A stretch of DNA of 34,820 nucleotides from Bacteroidales bacterium. GTDB taxonomy: Bacteria; Bacteroidota; Bacteroidia; Bacteroidales; UBA932. Location: contig JAFRRR010000094.1 of NCBI GenBank assembly GCA_017428035.1, positions 1 through 34,820 on the forward strand, given 5' to 3'. Below the pieces are notes generated by a model, which did not search any database, was not told the DNA's origin, and saw only the letters and a list, made by a program, of their open reading frames with translations. A program made the translations under genes and the position numbers. Below, in pieces: positions 5,940-13,411 of the stretch (positions are counted from its first letter, which is position 1; the number at the start of each line of letters is the position of its first letter).

Positions 5940-6099
5940 TGAGAATTACGTCAGTTGCCACTTACCATTTTTACGGATAATTGTTCTTGTATTTCGCCTA
6001 AAAGTTACTTCTTCATCAATGGCAGTAAAACCAAAAAGAAAAACGCCAGCATAAAATTGCCTATCGCAAGAAGAATCATTGGTGTTTCACAACCGGAAT

Positions 6100-6128
6100 A
6101 TTGGCAATATTTTGAAACTATTGCCAAT
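6100..6128. promoter_or_regulatory. 29-bp palindromic operator over the nucleotidyltransferase promoter
   Basis: ATTGGCAATA (6100-6109) is mirrored by TATTGCCAAT (6119-6128), and the centre TTTGAAA around G6114 is also symmetric, so 13 of 14 base pairs of the palindrome match. The -33 element TTTG sits at its centre, so a bound repressor dimer would block transcription. Binding protein unknown. Confidence 0.7.
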
Positions 6129-6141
6129 TTATATACATTTG
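6111..6141 (+). promoter_or_regulatory. Promoter of the AbiEi-like/nucleotidyltransferase gene
   Basis: TTTG (6111-6114), 19 bases, then TACATTTG (6134-6141): a full match to the Bacteroidota -33/-7 pattern, ending 14 bases before the ATG at 6156. This decides the start codon. Confidence 0.7.
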
Positions 6142-6155
6142 TTCAAAACATTGAT

Positions 6156-6929
6156 ATGGAATACCACGTGCAAATAACGCCTTGGATGCGTGAGGTTAGC
6201 GAGGTCCTTTTCGAGGAGCTTGTAGGAGTGGACAATTGTATCCACGAGTTTGGGCGGAATCTTATAGTAGAGGTTCCGCGTTCGGAAGTTGATAAAGCCG
6301 TTGCTGTTCTTGGTAAACATTTTCCTGATGTCGTTGATATTCGCAAGGCCTATCAGATGGTGGATGTTTTGCACGATTTCATCTTGGTTAAACCAATGAT
6401 TTCGGAATCGCCGCTGATTAAAGAAGAAGGGATAGTGGTCCCGAGTGCAGAGAAGGCGTTGGTGGATCTTATTGCCGACAAGGAGTATGCGAGTCTAACT
6501 GACACTCAAAAGAATAAGAGCATTCAAAGGGTCTGTGAGACATACAGGATCAATCACGCAAGGATTCAGCGTTATGCGGCAAGGAAAGGGAAGAAAGAAG
6601 AGCTGATGGCGGCGCTGGTAGGCACTGACGGGACAAGAATTGATGCCATTGCCAACATACAGCGGATACTGACGGGCGCCCCTGTGATGCGCGCTTGGCT
6701 ATTTGGTTCGTATGCCAGGATGGAAGAACGACCGGACAGTGATATTGACCTGTTGGTGGATTTTGAAAAGAATATGAAACTTGGGCTGATGGAATTATCA
6801 AAACTTGTTATTCAGATGGAAAAAGCCGTGGGGCGCAAGGTTGATTTGGTGGAGACGGCTTCTCTAAAGCCATTCGCCAGGGAAAGTGTAGAAAAAGATA
6901 AAGTGTTGATTTATGAGAGAGCCCGCTAG
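6156..6929 (+). CDS. AbiEi-like domain fused to a MNT-type nucleotidyltransferase
   Basis: 257 residues from the ATG at 6156, chosen because a full promoter lies 14 bases upstream. The frame stays open 67 codons further (TTG at 5955), so a longer form cannot be excluded. Residues 1-155 resemble the AbiEi-like/DUF6577 proteins of Bacteroidota (ITPWMREVSEVLFEEL, then PSAEKALVDLIADKEY and RINHARIQRYA), recalled from family knowledge. Residues 165-257 are a minimal nucleotidyltransferase: LFGSYARMEERPDSDIDLLV gives the GS...DxD signature, followed by GRKVDLVE. MNT-type enzymes act in HEPN/MNT toxin-antitoxin pairs, and AbiEi in AbiE. No HEPN or second toxin gene is adjacent. Codon use is less GC-biased than its neighbours, so transfer is likely. 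The winged helix usual at the front of AbiEi-like proteins is not recognisable. Confidence 0.75.
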   Translation: MEYHVQITPWMREVSEVLFEELVGVDNCIHEFGRNLIVEVPRSEVDKAVAVLGKHFPDVVDIRKAYQMVDVLHDFILVKPMISESPLIKEEGIVVPSAEKALVDLIADKEYASLTDTQKNKSIQRVCETYRINHARIQRYAARKGKKEELMAALVGTDGTRIDAIANIQRILTGAPVMRAWLFGSYARMEERPDSDIDLLVDFEKNMKLGLMELSKLVIQMEKAVGRKVDLVETASLKPFARESVEKDKVLIYERAR

Positions 6930-8059: not shown

Positions 8060-10024
8060 CTACTGTTCGGTAAAAGAATAGCCGAACCCGGCGCGGGTGG
8101 CGAGGCTGTCTGCATAAGGCCCCAGTTTCTTGCGGATGCGGGCGATGTTCACGTCCACGGTGTGGGCGGTTACAATCACGTCATCGGGCCAAACCTCCTT
8201 TAACAGCTGGTAGCGGGAGAACACTTTGCCGGGATTTTCAAGGAAGAGTTTAAGCAGTTCGTATTCGGTTTTGGTAAAGGCCACGACTTCGCCGTCAATC
8301 TTGACCTGCTTGCCGTCTGTATCTAACTGTATTCCCTTGAATCTTATGCCATTGCGGGCGGCGCCCATACGGGCCTCAACCACATTGATAATGTAGTCGC
8401 CGGTCTTTTCGCATTCGGATGCTATATCGTTGAATACCGTGCCGTTGTCATAGCCGTAGACGCGGTTGTCCAGGTTGGCGATGTTCTGCTGCTTGATGGT
8501 GTTGCGGCAGGCGTTGATGCGAGCCTCAGTGTCTTCGGACAGCGACATATCAAAATTGGACTTGTGGCCCGAAAGCAGGTCGTTCATATGCTCCAGGGCT
8601 TCGTCCACAAGGGCAAACATCTGCTGCATCCCCTCTTCCTGACTCTGGATAAAGGTTATCTTGTTTTCCCGCTTGCGTCGCAGTATCCTGGCAAGATTGA
8701 AGCAGCTGTCGCCAATGGATTCCAGTTCGCCTATCTGGCGAATCATACGCCTGATCTTGTCTTTGGTATCGTCTGACAGGTGTGCATCGCCCACCTGGCC
8801 CAGATAGCGGCCAATCTCATTCTCCATTTTGTCGCTGGCGTCCTCTGCCTTCTTGATCCTTTCGAAGAGCTTTTCAAACGGCTGCTCTTCCTGGATGCGG
8901 TATAGCTCTTTCACCATACCGAACATCTTGCGCATATCGGCACCGAACACCTCAATCTCTTTCTGAGCCTGCAGCACAGAGATTTCCGGGGTCTTCATAA
9001 GACCGCCACGGATATATTGCAGGCGGAATTCCTCTTCCTCTTCGGATTTTTTGGGCTTGATGAGAAGGCACACAAGCTTCTCTATCTGAGGTATAAACCA
9101 AATCAATATGGCAGTATTGATCACGTTGAAGCAGGTGTGGAAGGTGGCCAGTGCAAAGGAGAGCTGGGTGGGATTCTGCTCCGGGTCGGTGGGGTTCAGC
9201 CCCACGATGCCGCACACCATCCTGACGAACGGGAAGAACAGGATCAGCACCCAGATAACGCCGAAAACGTTGAACAGCAGGTGGGCCATAGCGGTACGGC
9301 GGGCCTGCGTGTTGGCGCTCAAAGCGGCCAGATTGGCGGTGAGCGTGGTACCGATGTTCTCGCCCATAACCAGCGCGATACCCTGATAGATAGAAATGGC
9401 TCCAGTGGCGCAAAGCACCATAGTGATAGCCATCAGCGCCGCGGAACTCTGCACCAGCGCCGTCAGAACAGTACCTATCAGAAGGAAAAGCAAGATGGTG
9501 CCGTAATTCGTCTTGAAGCTTGCAAAGAATTCTACCACTGCGGGTTTGTTTGCCAGATCCATCTCTATTCCTGCCTGCTTAAGCATTCCCAGCGCGAAAA
9601 GCAAGAACGAGAGGCCGAACAGGAAATCACCGATATAGCGGTGCTTCCCAAGCTGTATCAAGATGATGCCTATCAGGAATGCCGGCCACACCAGGGTGGT
9701 GATGTTGAAAGAGAAGCCGGCCGACATAATCCAGGCGCTCATAGTGGTGCCGATGTTGGCGCCCATAATCACCGAGATGGCCTGGGAGAGGGTTAGCAGG
9801 GCGGCATTTACAAACGACACCGTCATAACCGTGGTGGCGGCAGAAGATTGCACGGCAACCGTCACCAGCGCGCCGGTGGCAACGCCGGAAAACCGGTTGG
9901 TGGTCATAGCTCCCAGCATATGGCGAAGTCCGGGACCCGCCATTTTCTGGAGGGCCTCGCTCATCACCTTCATTCCGTATATCAGCAGGGCAATCGAGCC
10001 CAGAAGTTTCAGTACAATAAGCAT
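8060..10024 (-). CDS. Na+/phosphate symporter with PhoU-like and C-terminal OmpR/PhoB-type winged-helix domain
   Basis: 654 residues from the ATG at 10024 (a TTG two codons earlier is less likely). Residues 1-320 hold two inverted Na_Pi_cotrans repeats, each with a QSSA motif (about 59 and 192) and a GANIGTT/GENIGTT motif (about 88 and 221), with 8-10 membrane segments. Residues 345-550 are a cytoplasmic PhoU-like helical region (IRRMIRQIGELESIGDSCFNLARIL). Residues 560-654 form a complete Trans_reg_C winged helix: FTKTEYELLKLFLENPGKVF, recognition helix TAHTVDVNIARIRKKLG and wing TRAGFGYSF. The reading frame is uninterrupted across the join. NptA-PhoU proteins are well known; I do not know of the DNA-binding extension as standard. 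It could act as a membrane-bound phosphate-responsive regulator (inference). Confidence 0.92.
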   Translation of the reverse strand: MLIVLKLLGSIALLIYGMKVMSEALQKMAGPGLRHMLGAMTTNRFSGVATGALVTVAVQSSAATTVMTVSFVNAALLTLSQAISVIMGANIGTTMSAWIMSAGFSFNITTLVWPAFLIGIILIQLGKHRYIGDFLFGLSFLLFALGMLKQAGIEMDLANKPAVVEFFASFKTNYGTILLFLLIGTVLTALVQSSAALMAITMVLCATGAISIYQGIALVMGENIGTTLTANLAALSANTQARRTAMAHLLFNVFGVIWVLILFFPFVRMVCGIVGLNPTDPEQNPTQLSFALATFHTCFNVINTAILIWFIPQIEKLVCLLIKPKKSEEEEEFRLQYIRGGLMKTPEISVLQAQKEIEVFGADMRKMFGMVKELYRIQEEQPFEKLFERIKKAEDASDKMENEIGRYLGQVGDAHLSDDTKDKIRRMIRQIGELESIGDSCFNLARILRRKRENKITFIQSQEEGMQQMFALVDEALEHMNDLLSGHKSNFDMSLSEDTEARINACRNTIKQQNIANLDNRVYGYDNGTVFNDIASECEKTGDYIINVVEARMGAARNGIRFKGIQLDTDGKQVKIDGEVVAFTKTEYELLKLFLENPGKVFSRYQLLKEVWPDDVIVTAHTVDVNIARIRKKLGPYADSLATRAGFGYSFTEQ

Positions 10025-10047
10025 AATCAATTCAATTCGGTTGCGAA

Positions 10048-10065
10048 TTTACATTAAAATGACAG
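10048..10065 (-). promoter_or_regulatory. Pho-box-like direct repeat before the symporter gene
   Basis: On the minus strand: CTGTCAT, TTTA, ATGTAAA. This is the 7+4+7 geometry of PhoB sites, with the first unit identical to the E. coli CTGTCAT half-site. A weak -7 box TAAATTCG (10051-10044, one mismatch) overlaps it, 19 bases before the ATG at 10024. Inference only. Confidence 0.4.
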
Positions 10066-10088
10066 CTTAAAAAAGACTGCAGGGCATT

Positions 10089-10106
10089 TGTAACAAAATT
10101 TTAACG
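10089..10106 (+). promoter_or_regulatory. Second Pho-box-like repeat before the TonB receptor
   Basis: TGTAACA (10089-10095), AT-rich AAAT, TTTAACG (10100-10106): an 11-base-step direct repeat just upstream of the weak -7 box of the receptor gene. It resembles Pho-box geometry but departs from the classic sequence. Confidence 0.3.
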
Positions 10107-10137: not shown

Positions 10138-12498
10138 ATGAATATACGCAGACTCATACTTGTTGCGACCTTGCTGCTACTGGCCGGCGTGTTGCCGGCT
10201 GTTGCACAGAAGATTGTGCTGTCTGGATATGTCCGGGAGGCGGGCAGCGGAGAGCCGCTGAACGGCGCCGTGGTGTTCACTGCGGATATGAAAACAGGGG
10301 TGTCTGCCAATTCGGCAGGATTCTATTCGATAGAGGTCGCCGCCAAAGAGCAGGTTATCAAGTGCTCCTATGCCGGATATACCACCGCAGAATTTACAAT
10401 CACCCCAAAAGGGAAGAATCTTAAGCACGATTTCCTTCTGGAAGAGGACAGGGAGATGCTGGAGGCGGCCAAGGTGTTCTCCAAGAGCAAGCGCGAGCAG
10501 CTGACCCTGCCTCAGCTGGGCAAGGAGACGGTCACCGCAGACATCATCAAGAAAGTCCCGGCGCTTATGGGCGAGGCCGATGTGATAAGGGTCATACAGA
10601 TGCTGCCGGGCGTGCAGACGCCCAGCGAAGGATCCACCGGCTTCAGCGTCCGCGGCGGCGGCATAGACCAGAACCTTGTGCTGATGGATGGCGCTCCGCT
10701 ATACAATTCGGGCCACTTCCTGGGCTTTCTGTCTATGTTCAACGGCGACGCCGTGAAAAATGCGCAGCTCTATAAGGGCGACTTTCCCGCCTCGTTTGGC
10801 GGCCGGCTTTCGTCGGTGCTGGACGTAAGCACCCGCGACGGCAATAAAAACAAGTTCGAAGGCAATGTCTCCATAGGCCTGATAACCTCCCGCGCCGCGG
10901 TGGAAGGCCCTATCGTAAAGGACAAACTCTCTTTTATGCTGGCCGCCCGCCGCACCTATATGGATGTTTTCTTCCCGATTTTCGGCAAGAATATACCAAA
11001 GAACACCCAGATGTATTTCTACGATATCAACGGCAAGCTCAGCTGGGTGGCAAGCCCCAGGGACAGGGTCTATCTGAGCGTGTTCAGCGGGCGCGACGTG
11101 TTTGGGATGTCTATGGAAGACTTTGACCTGGACAAGATGAAGTTTGCCTTTGCCAACAACACCCAGACGCTGCGCTGGAGCCACGAATTCTCGCCCAAGC
11201 TCTTTTTCAGCGCCACCGCCTATAATTCCCGCTACAAAGGCGGCGTGGACGGTGCTATGAGCGTGGCATCCTGGACCTATACTTCTGCCTTGATGGAGAC
11301 CGGCCTGAAAACTGGCCTGACCTGGTATATCAATTCGTCCAACACTCTCCAGGCCGGCATAGATGCTGCATATCACAGGATGGACCCCTGCGACGTGTCT
11401 CCCGAAGGGGAGGAATCGATAGTGCAGGACGTGCATCTGCAGCGCACATATGCAGTGGCTCCGGCCGTGTATGTTCAGAACGAACAGAAAATAGGGCCTC
11501 TGACGCTGCGCTATGGCCTCAGGGCGGGTACCTTTACCACCCTTGGCGAGGCGGACCAGAAATATTACGACCCCGAGACTCACGACCTGGCCGAGACGGT
11601 CCACTTTGAAAAGGGCGAAGCCATCAAGACCTATTTTGGCCTGGAGCCGCGCTTCTCGGCCTCGTTCTCCATCAACCCCGACTTGAGCCTTAAAGCTGCC
11701 TATTCCCGTTCGTTCCAGTATATACAGCAAGTGCCCATCAGCATCTCCGGCAGCCCCATAGACGCCTGGTTCATGTCCTCGCCCAACATACTGCCGCAGA
11801 TTTCCGACCAGTTCTCTGCGGGCCTCAATGCTTTATTTGCCGGTCAGGCGCTGGAATTCTCTGCCGAAGCGTTCTATAAGAACAACGCCAACACTATGGA
11901 CTTCAAGGAGAATCCGGGCCTGGTGTTCGACGATGCCGAGCGCGAGGGCCTGCTGCGCTTCGGCAAGTCTTATGCCTATGGCGCCGAAGTGATGCTGCGC
12001 TACGAATTCAACCGGCTGAGCGGCTGGCTGGGCTACACTTTCTCCCGCGCCATCTACGATATTCCGGAGTTGAACGGCGGCAAGCCCTATCGCTCCCCGC
12101 TGAATCACGAGCATTCGGTGAACTTTGTCCTGTCTTACGATATCACCCGTCAGATGTCGCTCTCCGCCGACTGGGTGTTCTACAGCGGGGCGCCGACAAC
12201 CTTCCCCGTGGGGCGTTTTTCATACGGTGGGACCTACGCGTCGCTGTACTCGTCTCGCAACGAGGACTCTATGCCGCCATATCACCGTATGGATCTGGCG
12301 TTTACCTATAAGGACCGCCGCCGTGCCGCGGGCCGTCCCGGCGGCTGCGAGTGGAATCTCTCGCTATACAATGCTTATTCGCGCCACAACGCCTGGTCGC
12401 TGGCCTTCCTCTACAACCGTATGGAAGAGAAGCCGCAGGCGCTTAAAGTATATCTGTTCACAATAATCCCGTCTCTGTCGTTCAATGTGTATTTTTAA
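10138..12498 (+). CDS. TonB-dependent outer-membrane receptor with CarboxypepD_reg-like domain
   Basis: 786 residues. Domains in order: Sec signal peptide (1-23, ending in PAVAQ), a CarboxypepD_reg-like beta-sandwich (about 26-100, LSGYVREAGSGEPLNGAVVFTADMKTG), a plug domain (about 120-230, with GFSVRGGGIDQNLVLMDGAPLYN), then a 22-strand barrel ending in the aromatic terminus FNVYF that outer-membrane insertion needs. There is no SusD-like partner. Instead the next gene, overlapping by 14 bases, encodes a DUF4249 lipoprotein, the partner usually found with this receptor class. Ligand unknown. It diverges from the Na/Pi symporter, and both promoters carry Pho-box-like repeats, so a phosphorus-linked substrate is a speculative possibility. 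Confidence 0.93.
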   Translation: MNIRRLILVATLLLLAGVLPAVAQKIVLSGYVREAGSGEPLNGAVVFTADMKTGVSANSAGFYSIEVAAKEQVIKCSYAGYTTAEFTITPKGKNLKHDFLLEEDREMLEAAKVFSKSKREQLTLPQLGKETVTADIIKKVPALMGEADVIRVIQMLPGVQTPSEGSTGFSVRGGGIDQNLVLMDGAPLYNSGHFLGFLSMFNGDAVKNAQLYKGDFPASFGGRLSSVLDVSTRDGNKNKFEGNVSIGLITSRAAVEGPIVKDKLSFMLAARRTYMDVFFPIFGKNIPKNTQMYFYDINGKLSWVASPRDRVYLSVFSGRDVFGMSMEDFDLDKMKFAFANNTQTLRWSHEFSPKLFFSATAYNSRYKGGVDGAMSVASWTYTSALMETGLKTGLTWYINSSNTLQAGIDAAYHRMDPCDVSPEGEESIVQDVHLQRTYAVAPAVYVQNEQKIGPLTLRYGLRAGTFTTLGEADQKYYDPETHDLAETVHFEKGEAIKTYFGLEPRFSASFSINPDLSLKAAYSRSFQYIQQVPISISGSPIDAWFMSSPNILPQISDQFSAGLNALFAGQALEFSAEAFYKNNANTMDFKENPGLVFDDAEREGLLRFGKSYAYGAEVMLRYEFNRLSGWLGYTFSRAIYDIPELNGGKPYRSPLNHEHSVNFVLSYDITRQMSLSADWVFYSGAPTTFPVGRFSYGGTYASLYSSRNEDSMPPYHRMDLAFTYKDRRRAAGRPGGCEWNLSLYNAYSRHNAWSLAFLYNRMEEKPQALKVYLFTIIPSLSFNVYF

Positions 12499-13411
12499 AA
12501 ATAAACTCTTTGCAATCTTGCTGATAGCGCTTCTGGCGGCTTCCTGCACGGAGGTGGTGGATATCCACACCAAGGGCATGGACCGCCACTATCTGGTGGT
12601 GGAGGGGATGCTTACCGACCGGACCGATATGCGGCAGAAGGTGCAACTGACAGGATCCGTGGATTATTTTGAGCCGGAGACGCCGCCTGCAGTGTCGGGA
12701 GCCAGGGTGGCCGTGAGCGATGGAGAAAGCACAGTTGAATATACCGAAACGCCGCCGGGAAGCGGCTGTTACATTGGCCCGGAGGGCTTCTGCGGCACCC
12801 CCGGCGGAACATACACCCTTACCATAGATGTGGAGATAGACGGAGAGCAGCGTCATTATGAGGCTTCTTCTACAATGGAAGAGCCCGGATTTGCCGATGC
12901 AGAGGTGGACTATATGTATGCCGGCAAACCGGAAATGCATATTGACAGCCTCTGGACCGTTGCCCTGTGGGGCAGGGACTTGCCGCAGACAAGTTATTAT
13001 TACATAAACTCCAGATTGAACGACGCAGTGTTCCCTATGCAGCTCTCGCTGTCTATAGACGACAAGTACTTTGCCGGCCAGAAGGTGACCTGCTTTCCGG
13101 TAACGACTCTTGCCCAGACGGGCCTCAGGCAAAAGATGTACGGCGACTGCGCCAAGTATCTGGAGACGGGCGACGTCTTCACGCTTTATGTTTACACGAT
13201 ACCCAAGGATTACTACGATTTCTATATGGGATTTGTGTCAAGCAGTGTGGGCGCGGCTATCCCGCTGATACAGTCGCAGCCATCCAACTGTCCCACCAAC
13301 ATACGCGGCGACTATGCGGCAGGCTATTTCGTGGCCTGCTCCAGTACAAGTGCCAGCGTAGTGATAGACCAGCCGCTGCGGCCGTTCTACAAAAAACTTT
13401 TGGGATTCTAA
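12485..13411 (+). CDS. DUF4249 lipoprotein, partner of the TonB receptor
   Basis: 308 residues. The signal peptide ends in LLAASC with Cys21 as lipid anchor. The remainder matches the pattern of DUF4249 proteins of Bacteroidota: an early HYLVVEGMLTDRTDMRQKVQLTG segment, an Ig-like beta region with YTLTIDVE, and a C-terminal part ending CPTNIRGDYAAGYFVACSST. The start lies inside the last codons of the receptor gene (14-base overlap), so the two are co-translated. These proteins presumably sit at the outer membrane with the receptor and help capture the ligand; the biochemical function is not established. The four bases after its stop lead directly to the convergent SGNH hydrolase gene. Confidence 0.88.
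   Translation: MCIFKNKLFAILLIALLAASCTEVVDIHTKGMDRHYLVVEGMLTDRTDMRQKVQLTGSVDYFEPETPPAVSGARVAVSDGESTVEYTETPPGSGCYIGPEGFCGTPGGTYTLTIDVEIDGEQRHYEASSTMEEPGFADAEVDYMYAGKPEMHIDSLWTVALWGRDLPQTSYYYINSRLNDAVFPMQLSLSIDDKYFAGQKVTCFPVTTLAQTGLRQKMYGDCAKYLETGDVFTLYVYTIPKDYYDFYMGFVSSSVGAAIPLIQSQPSNCPTNIRGDYAAGYFVACSSTSASVVIDQPLRPFYKKLLGF

Follow-up and report, generated by a model that had tools for sequence, protein, structure and literature searches.

A Na+/phosphate symporter gene fused to a PhoU-like region and a PhoB-type winged helix, with a candidate PhoB-type box in its promoter, in Bacteroidales

The window, the whole 34,820-nucleotide stretch of Bacteroidales DNA that was analyzed (genome G000, 2.26 Mb), carries on its minus strand a gene in which a Na/Pi symporter, a PhoU-like region and a winged-helix (wHTH) DNA-binding domain are joined in one chain (Table 1). 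The reading frame is unbroken from the ATG at 10024 to the stop codon ending at 8060 (654 amino acids, zero internal stops, hence none between the PhoU and winged-helix parts); an alternative TTG start six bases 5′ of the ATG would give 656 amino acids. With Pfam, Na_Pi_cotrans (PF02690) matched in two stretches with 181.4 bits (cut-off 29.1), PhoU (PF01895) at residues 370–447 with 31.0 bits (cut-off 23.5) and Trans_reg_C (PF00486) at residues 578–651 with 74 bits, spanning profile positions 1–77 of 77. The NCBIfam symporter family TIGR00704 scored 219.5 bits (cut-off 210.1), and a profile of the fusion family matched the SLC34A2a structure 9z60 in two stretches; Na-driven phosphate transport is predicted from these matches. 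The preliminary description had claimed one unbroken frame running from symporter through PhoU into a complete PhoB-type winged helix, and this was borne out, with all Pfam domains over their cut-offs; its PhoU assignment held for the first repeat, the second falling below the Pfam threshold. As no hydrophobic segments were found past residue 330, the PhoU and winged-helix parts are taken to be cytoplasmic.

Table 1. Positions in the window of the fusion gene, its parts and the upstream elements.
Feature	Position	Strand	Basis or remark
Fusion gene, 654 amino acids: Na/Pi symporter, PhoU, PhoB-type winged helix	8060..10024	-	intact ORF, Pfam, intact relatives
Na/Pi symporter part, residues 1-325, two Na_Pi_cotrans repeats, QSSA motifs	9050..10024	-	TIGR00704, PF02690
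PhoU-like region, residues about 330-553	8366..9037	-	PF01895 at 370-447
Winged-helix DNA-binding domain, residues about 562-654, complete	8063..8341	-	PF00486, 74 bits
Recognition helix region, residues about 621-635, including N626, R629, R631, K632	8120..8164	-	fusion alignment
Candidate -7 promoter element TAAATTCG	10044..10051	-	Bacteroidales TAnnTTTG type
PhoB-type box GTTAAAATTTT-GTTACAAAT, 11-bp direct repeat	10086..10105	-	62-81 bp upstream of start codon, 1 mismatch

The tail is a winged helix of PhoB lineage with a PhoB-like recognition helix. Its top NCBIfam match was the Bacteroidota PhoB model NF053854 (113.6 bits over profile positions 129–224, cut-off 270), followed by the general PhoB model with 77.6 bits. 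Among solved structures, the E. coli PhoB DNA-binding domain 1GXP matched at E = 2.8e-14 and the OmpR-family regulator 8hml slightly better, at 1.4e-14. In the stand-alone Bacteroidota regulators that were compared, the recognition helix is the same as in the fusion nearly throughout. A tree of 18 fusion tails (six near-duplicates omitted), 16 Bacteroidota regulators picked for their likeness to the tails and eight regulators from other phyla grouped the tails with the Bacteroidota regulators (support 100/99) and did not settle whether there was a single fusion or several. The receiver domain (PF00072) is absent from the protein by Pfam, and the fusion is thus not a PhoB response regulator; HisKA, HATPase and receiver domains are all missing from the chain, which is neither a hybrid two-component regulator (HTCS) nor a hybrid kinase. 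With a DNA-binding domain, a transmembrane region and no two-component domains, its architecture is that of the transmembrane transcription regulators.

The fusion is neither a chance product nor an assembly error, because a 98%-identical copy is present in a different genome (G018) and 13 more intact relatives (62–82% identity) were aligned. Absence from close relatives, which would have spoken against the fusion, was looked for and not encountered; each of the 15 proteins aligned from the window's family has the three Pfam families. The architecture was found in 10 of 26 genomes of the window's genus (G000 and nine others), in four genomes of genus g31, in one of genus g38 and in 4 of 18 genomes of a second Bacteroidales family, f55. 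The family sample comprised 199 genomes, 13 with the fusion (G018 and G007, found separately, lie outside it); matches spanning both parts were present in 2 of 393 genomes of the order sample at E ≤ 1e-28 and in 1 of 395 of the phylum sample, the window's own, at E ≤ 1e-38. Seven contigs with the fusion (L067–L073) are Bacteroidales or Bacteroidia MAGs, five of them from named ruminant stomach sites (goat, dairy cattle, roe deer, water buffalo), with no such site named for the other two. The 24 fusions compared below are the 15 aligned, L068, L070–L073 and the four of f55; L067 and L069 were taken as identical to G017 and G104 and not counted separately.

Some candidates were discarded. Among 80 matched contigs, Sphingomonadales and other distant matches spanning the PhoU-end and winged-helix columns looked like fusions; in the seven checked for frame length (L079, L081, L082, L095, L106, L135 and L140) the frames are 231–274 amino acids, the size of response regulators, and three of these seven, viewed as sequence, are ordinary PhoB-like regulators. 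A TAA that seemed to lie inside the frame of the G161 fusion is merely its terminal stop.

Comparison of upstream regions yielded the pattern GTTAMAATTNN-GTTAMAATT, an 11-bp tandem direct repeat. It resembles a Pho box at a target promoter and is treated as a candidate site; the literature searched contained no published Bacteroidota Pho-box sequence for comparison. A promoter/terminator scan and a repeat finder run on the region gave no result above chance level and missed the box. In all 10 fusions of the genus the box begins 80–83 bp ahead of the start codon (seven at ≤2 mismatches, three at 4), and likewise in the G190 and L068 fusions. In the f55 fusions it lies on the opposite strand in all four, an orientation relative to the symporter gene shared with G157, G166 and G175. 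The sequence TAnnTTTG, which we take to be the consensus of the Bacteroidales -7 element, is the type to which the element in the window was assigned; when this pattern was loosened to TA..TT[TC][GA], the distance from the second half-site to the element was 43 bp (once 42) in the 11 sequences with a same-strand box, a twelfth row, L167, having been left out for its opposite orientation.

The box is not a constant companion of the symporter or of the fusion. No match at ≤2 mismatches was found in 11 of the 24 fusions, and within 260–300 bp upstream of G104, G090, G197, G161 and L070–L073 there was none at ≤5. Five of six close unfused siblings had no box and the sixth (L174) had a 4-mismatch match at -29; one of the six belongs to G190, in which a fused copy is present on a different contig. 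Of four Bacteroidales orthologues in a plasmid collection, B. finegoldii L222 had an upstream box at 4 mismatches, L220 one at 5, and L221 and L223 none; a box is thus no general feature of this symporter.

Whole genomes (n = 44) were scanned for the box at ≤2 mismatches, with the reversed pattern as control. In the window's genome, the box before the fusion is the sole match, and G018, G008, G019 and G190 similarly have a single site each, at the fusion promoter. Two sites each occur in G021, G017 and G001, one of the two lying at the fusion promoter; the single site of G006 lies away from its fusion, and G020 and G007 have none. The reversed pattern gave 10 sites over the 26 genomes of the genus and the box 19; as seven of the 19 are fusion promoters, the remaining 12 are near background. 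The f55 fusion genomes G587, G595, G601 and G602 gave 7, 3, 6 and 5 sites against 4, 3, 4 and 5 for the control; these counts are not clearly above control, and in f55 the fusion is not singled out by the box. In 30 loci viewed for other 2-mismatch sites, the neighbors left after discounting the fusions and symporters were by eye mostly non-phosphate genes. In G012, a 2-mismatch box-like site (L209:747–766) lies ~36 bp upstream of another Na/Pi-symporter-like gene, which is cut by the contig edge.

Four residues of the recognition helix, N626, R629, R631 and K632, were chosen post hoc, after the alignment had been viewed. Every one of the 13 fusions whose box has ≤2 mismatches retains all four, and none of the other 11 has the full set; in three of these 11 the box is degenerate, at 4 mismatches. 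Box and helix thus agree in 24 of 24 fusions (Fisher p = 4e-7 on rows that are related to one another); corrected for the tree, the link comes down to two independent contrasts, both concordant (p = 0.5). In the verified PhoB proteins L170 and L171 the fourth residue is R instead of K, and allowing R at this position left the counts unchanged (13/13 and 0/11).

Genomes were also searched for other phosphate regulators. In the window's genus, Trans_reg_C was matched in 10 of 26 genomes, once in each and always in the fusion, and receiver domains are present in all 26; the fusion being the sole OmpR-type DNA-binding domain, no stand-alone OmpR-type regulator and hence no PhoB was found in the 26 genomes. 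Six of these are ≥90% complete with ≤5% contamination, five of the six being fusion genomes, and five of the ten fusion genomes are ≥92% complete. Members of the genus that have no fusion also have no OmpR-type domain, so the fusion alone cannot account for the lack. Four g31 fusion genomes and one of g38 have one Trans_reg_C match apiece, which, listed without coordinates, was taken to be the fusion; at least one match was present in 161 of the 199 genomes of the family sample. The single-domain rule fails in f55, whose four fusion genomes retain two to three further OmpR-type domains; in G587 these are RprY (371.1 bits, cut-off 370) and a regulator that reaches 212 where the PhoB cut-off is 270. 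PstB exceeded its cut-off in 0 of 26 genomes of the genus: the nearest scores were 332 bits in G013 (cut-off 343) and 316 in G002, neither of which has the fusion, and the best in G000 was 157. The four HisKA matches of G000 sit in frames of 1202–1444 amino acids, which are unlike PhoR.

An unfused arrangement was found in two g31 genomes, G157 and G166. There, the genes for a PhoB (295 and 291 bits, cut-off 270) and a shortened PhoR (277 and 281 bits against a cut-off of 500) diverge from a tandem pair of Na/Pi symporter genes, and repeats of the box type on the strand opposite to the symporters lie in the shared intergenic region (2–3 mismatches) and before the second symporter (1–2 mismatches). 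G175 has the same symporter pair and a 1-mismatch box; the contig ends there. The shortened PhoR frames (L170:3248–4054 and L171:8662–9495; 268 and 277 amino acids), adjoining PhoB and the symporters, cover only about positions 354–581 of the 583-position model.

We propose, as the simplest account and with a probability of roughly 0.6, that in the window's lineage the fusion is a membrane-tethered, one-component, self-regulating Na+/phosphate symporter that replaced the PhoR-PhoB pair. The DNA-binding domain of a Bacteroidota PhoB, minus its receiver, would have been joined to a Na+/phosphate symporter-PhoU chain. The trigger would be the transport state or cytoplasmic Pi, read via the symporter and the conformation of the PhoU domain, and would alter how the C-terminal winged helices are exposed or paired; two such helices would occupy the 11-bp tandem box, immediately upstream of the core promoter, and determine how much symporter is made. 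The fusion would thereby do at the symporter promoter what PhoB had done, with the phosphorelay lost and the separate pair replaced. The sequences point to this through the fusion itself, the PhoB-like ancestry and conservation of the winged helix, the box and its near-unique genomic position in the genus, its association with an intact helix and the lack of other OmpR-type domains; from these we infer binding, sensing by symporter and PhoU and a mode of action at the membrane, with control that could be of either sign. The fusion is real and conserved, and the specific circuit has good in silico support in the window's genus; f55 fits the model only in part. The earlier suggestion of a one-protein Pho system, in which Pi flux would be sensed and DNA bound from the membrane, accordingly gained partial support in the genus, with no other OmpR-type domain in its ten fusion genomes, no PstB above cut-off in any of the 26, a box at the fusion's own promoter and an unfused layout in two related genomes, but it does not extend to the 11 fusions with no box at ≤2 mismatches or to f55 with its retained regulators. 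We put at somewhat worse than even the further proposition that the transporter is itself the transcription factor, Pi being sensed via the transport cycle and PhoU and the promoter controlled from the membrane, so that the three-gene circuit of PhoR, PhoB and symporter would be reduced to a single gene that retains its operator.

The box sits just upstream of the core promoter, a position suiting activation, whereas in B. fragilis PhoB is reported to reduce a Na-dependent Pi transporter at low Pi. According to the part of the B. fragilis study consulted (PMC3547664), the Na-dependent phosphate transporter BF4351 was 101-fold lower at low Pi in the wild type, and no BF4351 change is listed there for the phoB mutant. 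Judging from its Ca-ATPase neighbor BF4348 and from the B. finegoldii locus, BF4351 is probably the orthologue of the fusion's symporter.

Another reading is that the tail binds its own promoter and holds the symporter level constant, with no signal from transport or PhoU. This agrees with the box scan, in which the excess over control in the genus was confined to fusion promoters, and with the lack of any sign of signaling between the fused parts. The parts that were fused are, against this, the very ones that PhoU/PhoB signaling joins in other bacteria, where it links phosphate transport to regulation, and related genomes hold a PhoR-like kinase for this PhoB; we regard autoregulation of this kind as unlikely.

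Less likely again is activity of the winged helix only once it has been freed as a soluble PhoB-like fragment, by proteolysis, as is known for some membrane regulators, or from an internal translation start. Two f55 fusion genomes, G601 (L214:2778–3269) and G602 (L215), encode a PhoB remnant of 147 amino acids from its ATG, with most of the receiver missing (in G601, NF053854 with 129 bits over profile positions 111–224), from which it follows that a nearly receiver-less PhoB winged helix can exist as a soluble protein. The linker between PhoU and winged helix in the fusion speaks against release: its length is constant across the 15 aligned proteins but for one 2-residue insertion, and no spacer is obvious. 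G601 also has a 0-mismatch box ~1.1 kb upstream of the remnant, at the head of a run of small genes on the same strand.

Selection on the winged helix and the distribution of the tail bear on whether the domain is used at all. Ten of 12 genus/G190 pairs were usable for dN/dS of the winged helix, and eight gave 0.055–0.141, one 0 and one 0.235 (G000/G006); in the window's genus the domain is under purifying selection. G000 against G587 gave 0.26 and against G161 0.32. Boxless g31 pairs gave 0.44 and 0.47, with 0.34 and 0.38 for the PhoU part, so relaxation there is not confined to the tail. On the symporter tree, a quick tree with long-branch warnings that includes close unfused siblings, eight gains or losses of the tail are required, at least five of them forced by well-supported branches. 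That the winged helix is a passenger left by gene fusion and in course of loss is improbable for the window, since its lineage combines purifying selection on this domain with a PhoB-like helix and a retained box, and suits better the boxless class, with its raised dN/dS, altered helices and repeated presence and absence of the tail. In the same-genus sibling G016 (L168:8829–10547), the frame stops where the winged helix would start and no box is present, which is likely a loss of the tail.

The self-regulating symporter proposed here would share with the PhoR-PhoB pair and Na/Pi symporter of other Bacteroidota a common winged-helix lineage with a near-identical recognition helix, a similar 11-bp direct-repeat box and control of phosphate transport; it differs in having neither a receiver nor a separate kinase, and in carrying the DNA-binding domain on the symporter. 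CadC is membrane-bound and has a winged helix. CadC and ToxR, like the fusion, place a DNA-binding domain in one membrane protein, whereas the membrane part of the fusion is a complete secondary transporter and its DNA-binding domain is C-terminal. Regulation of transcription from the membrane is predicted for the fusion from its architecture. Surveyed transmembrane transcription regulators have up to 22 membrane spans (PMC10269533), and the main text of that survey uses the word transporter a single time, within the title of a reference. The nearest ideas, as far as the accessible parts of the papers go, are CbrA and LysP-CadC. In CbrA, a sensor kinase fused to an SLC5 symporter (PMC7096432), a secondary transporter and signaling parts are likewise joined, but the output is a kinase with a separate response regulator rather than a DNA-binding domain. 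LysP-CadC (PMC12764776) likewise pairs a transporter with a transcriptional regulator, as two proteins instead of one. No symporter-winged helix fusion was found among the literature matches listed, in which coverage of subscription papers was limited.

How PhoU and transporters relay phosphate status to transcription has long been debated as an open question. With transporter, PhoU and DNA-binding domain in the same chain and a single predicted operator, this coupling would become testable on one protein and its promoter. The genomes also offer a natural series, from PhoB/PhoR and symporter with box, through the fusion with box and the boxless fusion with altered helix, to the unfused sibling, that would form a comparative record of a signaling system merged and, seemingly, abandoned.

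No conserved gene neighborhood around the fusion was seen in the maps compared. A TonB receptor and its partner adjoin the fusion in several genomes in varying orientation, and a shared operon is therefore not supported. In the window, a TonB-dependent receptor and a DUF4249 protein (10138–13411) are encoded divergently from the fusion; the box lies ~32 bp before the start of the receptor and could also affect that gene. By eye, G018, G019 and perhaps G104 have a similar pair close to the fusion. In G017, a LytTR-type regulator gene (L152:8688–10474, Pfam-checked) lies directly upstream of the fusion together with a His_kinase gene, and LytTR-type genes were noted by eye near the fusion in G190 (L160:6295–6993) and G197 (L163:4090–5873). 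Elsewhere in the window, positions 5955–6929 encode a DUF6577 and nucleotidyltransferase protein with a weak MntA-type antitoxin match (51.5 bits, cut-off 60).
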